NCBI GenBank assembly: GCA_007693295.1
Contig: REDT01000144.1
Location: 1 to 33,387 of the forward strand
Direction: 5' to 3'
DNA: 33,387 nt
Origin: Balneolaceae bacterium
Lineage (GTDB): Bacteria > Bacteroidota > Rhodothermia > Balneolales > Balneolaceae
Position 1 is the first letter of the stretch. Each line of letters starts with the position of its first letter. The notes below the pieces were generated by a model, which had not been told where the DNA came from, ran no database searches, and saw nothing but the letters and a program-made list of their open reading frames with translations. This document shows positions 177 to 2,301 of this stretch, in pieces. The translations under genes were made by a program, and so were the position numbers.

Positions 177-260
177 TTACCCGAGCGCAAATATCGTTAC
201 TGCAGCCAGGATGATTATCGAAATAACAATTACGGTTCTTCTGATATAGATGTGCAGCAT
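177..260 (-). CDS. 27-residue single-span membrane peptide
   Basis: This is a short reading frame that is easy to miss. The peptide starts MLHIYIRRTVIVIS and ends FALG: a short basic N-terminus followed by about 18 hydrophobic residues, so one membrane helix with the N-terminus probably inside. The ATG is preceded by AGGAG with a seven-base spacer, one of the best Shine-Dalgarno sequences in the window, where many genes have none. It lies 15 bp downstream of the flavohaem reductase stop on the same strand, so the two are probably co-transcribed. By analogy with small subunits of membrane oxidoreductases such as CydX, it may be an accessory subunit. That role is inference only; no family was recognised. 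The stop codon lies in a ten-base palindrome at 172-181. Confidence 0.55.
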   Translation of the reverse strand: MLHIYIRRTVIVISIIILAAVTIFALG

Positions 261-275
261 GATTTATCTCCTATT

Positions 276-1601
276 CTAAACGATATTAAATCTTTCTGAG
301 TGAACCCGGTGTACAGGAATTCCCCAATCTCTAAGCGTGGGTTCAGCTACATCCATCATGGGTGGCGGCCCGCAAATGAAAAACTCACAGTTGGAATAAT
401 CATCGGGCAAGTTGCGCTTCATAATCTCTTCAGTGATAAACCCGGTTTCCCCATCCCAGTCATCCGGTGCTTCTTCAAACACGTGAATAAGGTTCAGGTT
501 CAGTTCGTCTGATAGACTTTTCAGCTCCTCATAAAAGGGGGTCATTTCCATGGAAGGTGTGCCATAAATGACGGTTGTTTCCCTTTGATCTCCACTGCTT
601 TTTAAATCTTGCAGAACGCTCATTGTTGGTGTAATTCCGATTCCTCCAACAATAAATACATTGTGTGTCGAGGAACTGGCATCCATGGTAAAGTTGCCGT
701 ATGGGCCTTCTATAAACGCTGTAGAACCCGGTTCAAGAGTATCTATATTAGAGGTGAAATCGCCCAGCTCCTTGATGGTTAAACGGATCTCTTTTTGGCT
801 GGGTGCGGATGAGATGGTAAACGGATGCTGCTGCAGGCTGAAGGGTGAATCACCCAGGGTAATCCAGATAAACTGTCCTGCTTTAAAATCGATCCCGTCA
901 TGACCTATAGGTTCAAGCCAGATTGACCATATACCGTCAGCCTCTTCATGAATAGAGGATATTTTCCACGGCTTTTTCTTCATCTGCATAGGGCGTAAAA
1001 CCCGGTTGTGCACTAGCATACTCATTGCTGCTAAAGAGAGAGAAACCCAAACTACCTGCTGCCAAAGCTCAGACACATAAAAGCTGACCTGCATAATGTG
1101 AACGGTTCCAATAAAAACAACAAAGAGTGCAAGAGCGCCATGAGAAGCGCGCCACCACTCATAGATAAGCCCGAATTTTTCCCGCCAGTGTGTTGTGGCA
1201 ATAAGGGCAGTAATGGCAATAATTACTGCGGAGAGAGCAATAGCCCGAGGCAGGTTTTCAGTGGGGCTGAGAAACTTGATGAATTCTGAATCGGCTGTTA
1301 ACAGGATGATGAAATGGCCCATGATGAAGAGCCATGCGATGTACCCGGCTTGTCCATGAAACTGCAGGAGTTCATCCAGCCCGAAGGGAGCGCCTATTTT
1401 ACTATATCGGGCAGTAAGAACAAATTGAAGTCCCATCATGGCCAGCCCTACGAAACCGAGCCCCACTCCAAACTCAATCCAAAAGCCTCGGCTCTCCTCT
1501 TCGTGGCCGATCAGGGCCAGGCTTAATGGTGCTATAACCAGTACTAAAAACAGTATGAGCCATTTAAGAGCGTTCTTGATGAAGGCAGATTTTGTACGCA
1601 T
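276..1601 (-). CDS. Ferric reductase-like transmembrane FAD/NAD(P) oxidoreductase
   Basis: This is a 441-residue membrane flavohaem protein of the ferric reductase/NADPH oxidase superfamily. The N-terminal 200 residues hold about five or six hydrophobic helices. Histidines 82/96 and 154/168 form two pairs each spaced by 14 residues, the arrangement used to bind two b haems across the membrane. The C-terminal half is a ferredoxin-NADP reductase module: the FAD motif HPFTISS is at 259-265, a GGIGITP nucleotide loop is at 319-325, and FFICGPPPMM near 415-423 is the usual C-terminal NAD(P) motif. It would carry electrons from cytosolic NAD(P)H through FAD and haem to an acceptor across the membrane. 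The physiological acceptor (ferric iron, oxygen, a periplasmic protein) cannot be read from sequence. No 2Fe-2S domain is present. A 27-residue membrane peptide follows at once. Confidence 0.85.
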   Translation of the reverse strand: MRTKSAFIKNALKWLILFLVLVIAPLSLALIGHEEESRGFWIEFGVGLGFVGLAMMGLQFVLTARYSKIGAPFGLDELLQFHGQAGYIAWLFIMGHFIILLTADSEFIKFLSPTENLPRAIALSAVIIAITALIATTHWREKFGLIYEWWRASHGALALFVVFIGTVHIMQVSFYVSELWQQVVWVSLSLAAMSMLVHNRVLRPMQMKKKPWKISSIHEEADGIWSIWLEPIGHDGIDFKAGQFIWITLGDSPFSLQQHPFTISSAPSQKEIRLTIKELGDFTSNIDTLEPGSTAFIEGPYGNFTMDASSSTHNVFIVGGIGITPTMSVLQDLKSSGDQRETTVIYGTPSMEMTPFYEELKSLSDELNLNLIHVFEEAPDDWDGETGFITEEIMKRNLPDDYSNCEFFICGPPPMMDVAEPTLRDWGIPVHRVHSERFNIV

Positions 1602-1890: not shown

Positions 1891-2301
1891 TCATGAAGAG
1901 GAGTTCTGAATGGCAGTTTGTACCTCTTCCGGCGGGCGGATTGGACGTCCATTGGTCATAAATACAGCAGTAACTTTCCCCTCAAGAGCGAGCTCGTTTT
2001 CAGGCAGTTTGTAAATATCCTGGAAAAACACAAATCGAACAAACCCCTCTTGCTCAGCTCTCATTCTCACCACAAAGCGATCGTCTCCCAACAAGGGGCG
2101 TTTATAGACCAGTTCCACCTTGTGAACTACCGCATCGGTTCCGTTTTCGTGAAGCTCATTAAAGTTCAGACCGATATGTTTCAAATACTCGTGCCGTGCA
2201 TGCTCCAGGTAGTTTTGATACACGGAATTGTTTACAACTCCCTGGGTATCCAGTTCATAATCGCGAACCGTAAATTCGAGTTCAAATTGATAATTTTTCA
2301 T
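1891..2301 (-). CDS. Acyl-CoA thioesterase, 4HBT hotdog family (YbgC/FadM-like)
   Basis: This 136-residue protein has the size and layout of a single hotdog-fold thioesterase. The key stretch is YELDTQGVVNNSVYQNYLEHAR at residues 15-36. Asp18 sits where YbgC/4-hydroxybenzoyl-CoA thioesterases place the catalytic Asp, and GVVNN followed by the long central helix matches the family. It should hydrolyse acyl-CoA thioesters in the cytosol; chain length and physiological substrate cannot be inferred. There is no signal peptide or membrane segment. It starts with ATG after an A-rich stretch and stands alone, not in an obvious operon with either neighbour. Confidence 0.85.
   Translation of the reverse strand: MKNYQFELEFTVRDYELDTQGVVNNSVYQNYLEHARHEYLKHIGLNFNELHENGTDAVVHKVELVYKRPLLGDDRFVVRMRAEQEGFVRFVFFQDIYKLPENELALEGKVTAVFMTNGRPIRPPEEVQTAIQNSSS

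Follow-up and report, generated by a model that had tools for sequence, protein, structure and literature searches.

A 27-codon gene for a probable dedicated single-helix subunit of a NOX/ferric-reductase-type enzyme

CydX/CbdX, the single-helix small subunit of the membrane haem enzyme cytochrome bd, is encoded at the 3' end of its operon and has a quinol oxidase as its partner; to our knowledge, there is no case in which it is fused to the catalytic subunit. Subunit IIa (CbaD) of the ba3-type haem–copper oxidases is likewise a single helix, 34–41 residues long and often unannotated (PMC3128077). In eukaryotes, NOX1–4 require a membrane partner, p22phox (PMC3591440). Bacterial NOX homologues such as SpNOX, the NADPH oxidase of Streptococcus pneumoniae (PDB 8QT6), serve as single-polypeptide NOX models. 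The SpNOX chain ends in a C-terminal tail set between its membrane domain and its dehydrogenase domain; F397 acts as a gate for the transfer of hydride between NAD(P)H and FAD, and F399 forms a bond with K70 of TM3 (PMC11564096).

Here we report a 27-codon frame that, on the evidence of comparative sequence analysis, probably (at a likelihood of about 0.78) codes for a single-helix subunit dedicated to the NOX/ferric-reductase-type enzyme whose gene immediately precedes it. The DNA analysed, hereafter the window, comprises 33,387 nucleotides from a Balneolaceae bacterium and is one entire contig (REDT01000144.1), with the peptide gene close to one of its ends. The frame (177..260, minus strand) runs from an ATG at 260 through 27 codons to a TAA at 177–179, and its product is the membrane microprotein MLHIYIRRTVIVISIIILAAVTIFALG. 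The TAG of the reductase occupies 276–278, leaving 15 nt before the ATG of the short frame, and a Shine–Dalgarno-like AGGAG (268..272, minus strand) falls within this gap. A preliminary description of this DNA had placed a short ATG-to-TAA frame directly after the reductase, with one membrane helix and AGGAG seven bases ahead of the ATG, and these particulars proved exact; the single helix reaches a maximum 17-residue Kyte–Doolittle mean of 3.17. Among the 276 ATG frames of 20–50 codons on both strands of the window, two are strongly hydrophobic (mean of at least 2.4), and 177..260 alone combines strong hydrophobicity with AGGAG or GGAGG, which makes it conspicuous in the window before any conservation data are considered. 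An SD-like motif stands at the right distance ahead of just 2 of the 17 other, larger clear genes tested in the window, in agreement with the earlier remark that many longer genes lack one; such a motif ahead of the microprotein is therefore unusual for this genome region.

The adjoining gene (276..1601, minus strand) encodes a 441-residue catalytic subunit, a bis-haem reductase of the NOX/ferric-reductase type in which six membrane helices are combined with FAD and NAD(P)H domains. The assignment rests on Pfam matches, on invariant histidines, and on the SpNOX fold of a homologue. Ferric_reduct, FAD_binding_8, and NAD_binding_1 all score above cut-off in the product, and reductase alignments contain the invariant pairs H82/H96 and H154/H168, corresponding to the two haem sites of NOX/FRE enzymes; the earlier naming of this neighbour as ferric reductase-like is borne out. 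The features that define the NOX/FRE group (the ferric reductase domain superfamily) are all found: two bis-histidine haem sites with pair members ~13 residues apart, FAD-binding and NAD(P)H-binding domains past the membrane domain, and the SpNOX fold, the last by way of a natural reductase–helix fusion among the homologues, L134 (Z 33.4, rmsd 2.7, 393 aligned residues). The reductase shares with SpNOX the six-helix bis-haem and FAD/NAD(P)H architecture and the C-terminal Phe on the flavin, but SpNOX, at 21% identity, is a single polypeptide and ends where the linker to the helix begins (PMC11564096).

The peptide itself matched none of the curated families of Pfam 2025 or NCBIfam 20.0 above cut-off, with best E values of 0.18–3.7, at chance level. 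It is like CydX/CbdX in its single helix and 3' place, but no sequence relation was found, neither database yielded a match, and the neighbour is not cydAB. Subunit IIa bears out the earlier statement that small single-span subunits are known in other membrane oxidoreductases, and it resembles the present helix in that its gene adjoins those of its enzyme and is sometimes fused to an electron carrier (halocyanin, in haloarchaea); its gene lies upstream of subunit II, however (PMC3128077), whereas the helix gene here lies downstream of a reductase, and both enzyme and sequence differ. The neighbour is a NOX-type reductase, and the PxGT/Trp motif of subunit IIa (PMC3128077) is absent from the peptide alignment. 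The eukaryotic p22phox is larger, has several helices, and recruits cytosolic factors (PMC3591440); it is recognized by its multi-helix form and proline-rich region, whereas the peptide has 27 residues, one helix, and no proline, and no sequence relation to it. Single-helix subunits are thus a familiar kind, but by sequence the present one was not found to belong to any of these, and for NOX/FRE enzymes p22phox is the known membrane partner. The open-access literature searched yielded no paper describing a small subunit for these enzymes in bacteria, an absence that is no proof of novelty.

Evidence that the frame is a gene comes from its relatives. In a first sweep, each reductase at least 50% identical and on a contig reaching past its stop was followed, 5–17 nt on, by the same frame of 27–29 codons. 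In a widened set of 19 Balneolales relatives, the frame was intact and within 31 nt of the reductase; no stop interrupted it over 25 codons at any of the 19 loci, and the +1 frame was stopped at every one. Mean pS was 0.735 against a pN of 0.223 (16 loci), and in the closest relative, whose reductase is 89% identical, the peptide is identical and the nucleotide changes are all synonymous. Identity at codon positions 1, 2, and 3 was 0.62, 0.86, and 0.41 for the peptide (19 loci), a pattern equal to that of the last 25 reductase codons at the same 19 loci (0.75, 0.84, and 0.40), and was just 0.26 over the 60 bases past the peptide stop (19 loci). The preliminary description had proposed looking for the same frame 3' of the reductase in relatives and for a preponderance of synonymous changes; both were found, while frame loss or frame-breaking changes, which it took as counterevidence, were seen at none of the 19 loci. 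The intact frame, its conservation, the signature of purifying selection, and the place 3' of the reductase indicate that 177..260 is a real coding gene under purifying selection. A frame of 27 codons is short, and such lengths are often open by chance, but a chance frame without a product is vanishingly improbable in view of pS/pN, the codon-position pattern, the linkage to the reductase alone, and the combination of hydrophobicity with AGGAG; we rejected it on conservation, purifying selection, reductase linkage, and the fusions described below. The Shine–Dalgarno motif was also dropped as a mark of the gene: AGGAG occurs in just 4 of the 19 close relatives and is therefore regarded as incidental, not as a conserved feature.

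The association between peptide and reductase extends well beyond the Balneolales. Searched against 128 genomes of the order, a peptide profile returned 24 matches at E<1e-6, all 24 directly 3' of this reductase. A reductase profile run against 84,980 species genomes recovered 80 loci (L065–L144) in about 12 phyla, among them Balneolota, Bacteroidota, Rhodothermota, Chloroflexota, Thermomicrobiota, Myxococcota, Planctomycetota, Gemmatimonadota, Verrucomicrobiota, Kiritimatiellota, Latescibacterota, Deinococcota, and Actinomycetota; many of the loci are from MAGs. A helix profile (E<=0.05) matched downstream of 89 of 105 reductases, a figure that is partly circular because the seed was taken from some of the 105 loci, and upstream of 0 of 105, a control that this does not affect. 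The 16 reductases lacking a match lie mostly at contig ends or are divergent forms. In a related reductase subfamily of the same phylum, with the C-terminus EDFDF or EEFAF, the helix was found at 0 of 9 loci. A third gene conserved beside the pair across phyla was sought and none was found, the thioesterase at 1891..2301 being common to a few Balneolaceae only. In Nonomuraea, the helix is present beside a reductase of 39% identity. The helix gene lies 100–400 nt from the reductase at a few loci, and tight coupling is therefore not obligatory.

The helix occurs in three architectures: as a separate gene, which is commonest; as the C-terminus of the reductase; and as the N-terminal anchor of a CxxCH protein. 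The second was found at six loci in Acidimicrobiia and Truepera (L088, L121, L134, L141, L142, L150), where, for example, the reductase tail continues as ...ERFDI-GAAGMIGRRATGIRRMVLGLGAVLILAAAMFAA and the protein then ends. Such natural fusion provides strong independent support for the helix being a subunit of this enzyme. The third is found in Deinococcota, where at eight loci (L154, L155, L158, L159, L162, L164, L165, L166) the helix anchors the N-terminus of a longer protein with CxxCH at least ~35 residues past it. Pfam matches of these domains to Cytochrome_CBB3 and Cytochrom_C are weak and fall under the curated cut-off; together with the in-frame CxxCH, they are the basis for calling the domains cytochrome c. 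In a tree made by a quick method and rooted only at its midpoint, the cytochrome form makes up one clade with full support, branching early within the helix-bearing subfamily, while the fused forms are scattered among the separate ones and the helix-less subfamily stands apart.

These architectures also bear on whether the peptide and the enzyme belong together at all. A small membrane peptide unrelated to the reductase and merely downstream of it, such as a type I toxin, a leader peptide, or a signal-peptide relic, would account for the generic size and hydrophobicity and for family matches at chance level, and in one genome (L021) an amidohydrolase-like gene indeed has a similar N-terminus as its lipoprotein signal. 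Such a peptide is very improbable: across phyla the helix is tied exclusively to one reductase subfamily, it is under purifying selection, and it occurs in natural fusions; all three candidates were discarded on those grounds. The same lines of evidence, along with the lack of a Pfam or NCBIfam family, lend strong support to the earlier suggestion that the frame may encode an undescribed accessory subunit.

Residue frequencies over 83 aligned helices give the subunit a recognizable anatomy. Position 3 is His in 73% and Tyr in 25%, position 6 is Ile or Val, and positions 7 and 8 are Arg, with Lys or Arg in 77% and 83%, respectively; small residues are frequent at positions 10, 14, 20–22, and 25, position 24 is Phe in 84% and position 25 Ala in 85%, and Arg often follows the helix. 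The Arg-Arg at the N-terminal edge (I-R-R, positive inside) and the haem-c domain on the C-terminal side in the Deinococcota form both point to a probable N-in/C-out orientation, and the face made up of small residues may mean that the helix packs tightly against another protein. It is possible, though unlikely, that the helix is chiefly a docking anchor for an acceptor, with an ancestor that carried a cytochrome c in the periplasm and a remnant of 27 residues left once that carrier was lost or became soluble. The in-frame CxxCH at the eight Deinococcota loci and the well-supported, early-branching position of these loci would fit such a history, for which the fusion of ba3 oxidase subunit IIa to its partner halocyanin in haloarchaea offers a precedent (PMC3128077). 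Yet the cytochrome form is limited to one clade of a tree that is midpoint-rooted only, and the best-conserved polar residues (H/Y3, R7, R8) lie towards the cytosol, not on the outer side of the helix.

Structure models place the helix in relation to the rest of the enzyme. AlphaFold2 modelled the natural fusion L134 with a pLDDT of 93.6 and a pTM of 0.91; the added helix (residues 450–474) has block means of 92–98, and in the window pair modelled as one chain the helix (448–473) stands at 93–98, although high pLDDT comes cheap for a lone helix. The linker ahead of it has low confidence, at 59–65 (65 in L134). The input consisted of natural fusions and in-frame read-through rows in which, purely for modelling and with no claim that read-through occurs, each stop was replaced by Gly; these rows were used because separate 27-residue peptide rows aligned onto a reductase helix, and one plasmid-derived row was left out of the alignment. 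Residues 5–443 of the L134 model align to SpNOX (8qt6), where the added helix has no counterpart. In the natural fusions the helix starts 10–15 residues past the Phe of the ERF tail (F438 here, the equivalent of SpNOX F397), which in the fused forms would put its cytosolic end close to FAD and to the inner haem. The entry point would adjoin the hydride-gating Phe (PMC11564096), as might be expected if the helix were not a constant structural part of the enzyme but served to inhibit it in a regulatory way or to modulate it under the control of stress, in the manner of the small membrane regulators of transporters and kinases; the peptide is also small, always last in its unit, and separate in most lineages. 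C-terminal fusions, however, fix a 1:1 stoichiometry and leave no separate control, and a shared short transcript unit argues for constant co-production. We consider a modulator quite unlikely.

If the helix is instead a dedicated structural subunit, as we favor, it would add a seventh membrane span next to the six helices of the haem domain, and its cytosolic end would sit close to FAD and the inner haem, at the interface where the membrane domain meets the dehydrogenase domain. The helix would then most likely serve to clamp or orient that interface through the Arg-Arg end and to stabilize the haem domain. The outer end would lie on the side of the outer haem and, in Deinococcota, bears the putative cytochrome c, which could bring an acceptor to the outer haem; this suggests that the helix may dock a periplasmic acceptor to which electrons are passed, or from which they come. 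The cytochrome c fusion further hints that the physiological acceptor is perhaps other than that of an NADPH oxidase in the strict sense, which produces superoxide or H2O2. More tentatively, a widespread, unannotated seventh-helix family might mark a NOX-like branch of transmembrane NAD(P)H:cytochrome c (or periplasmic acceptor) reductases, in which the helix would hold the dehydrogenase domain fast on the inner haem and would position the acceptor outside, with the stand-alone, fused, and cytochrome forms as alternative solutions to one need.

A one-helix partner that is too small for annotation pipelines thus goes with an entire reductase subfamily in about 12 phyla, and since it escapes annotation, a reductase expressed from annotated genes would miss a subunit. 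The natural fusions offer single-chain constructs ready for use, and a direct clue to the electron acceptor comes from the cytochrome c fusions. The pair may also be a further example of the general rule by which single-helix subunits are taken on by membrane oxidoreductases.

Several further observations concern the outer range of the family. At five alphaproteobacterial loci (L146, L147, L177–L179; Paracoccus, Ruegeria, and Sulfitobacter plasmids), with reductases of ~31% identity, a short hydrophobic frame occupies the equivalent place, directly past genes named 'ferredoxin reductase family protein'; the likeness in sequence and position is suggestive only, and the subunit family may extend to this class. 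RefSeq lists no gene at the short-frame site in the annotated Nonomuraea and alphaproteobacterial records. Many carriers of the pair, from many phyla, are soda-lake MAGs (CSSed names; there are papers on Cock Soda Lake) or isolates with alkaliphile-sounding names (Indibacter alkaliphilus, Natronoflexus). A habitat-linked gene moved between phyla is possible, with sampling bias as another option.

The surroundings of the helix also vary. At two Balneolia loci, L102 (from about 4326) and L109 (from about 2030), a related helix reads on in frame into a membrane protein of several helices for which there is no Pfam family, while at L116 and L126 the helix and the multi-helix piece are separated by a stop. 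At L021/L055 (G041:C11), where the reductase is 41% identical, the amidohydrolase-like gene that follows it has the helix-like N-terminus MLHKYIRNIVIVLTLLLVALVGVLASGC as its lipoprotein signal; another protein may have captured the helix, or the likeness may be fortuitous. Finally, 3' of the reductase at L063 there is an inverted repeat, GTGGCGGACACGG with its complement ~150 nt further on, and no helix in the 700 nt read, and 3' of the reductase at L105 there is a repeat-like stretch of ~240 nt with the helix beyond it; both look like small mobile or repeat elements.
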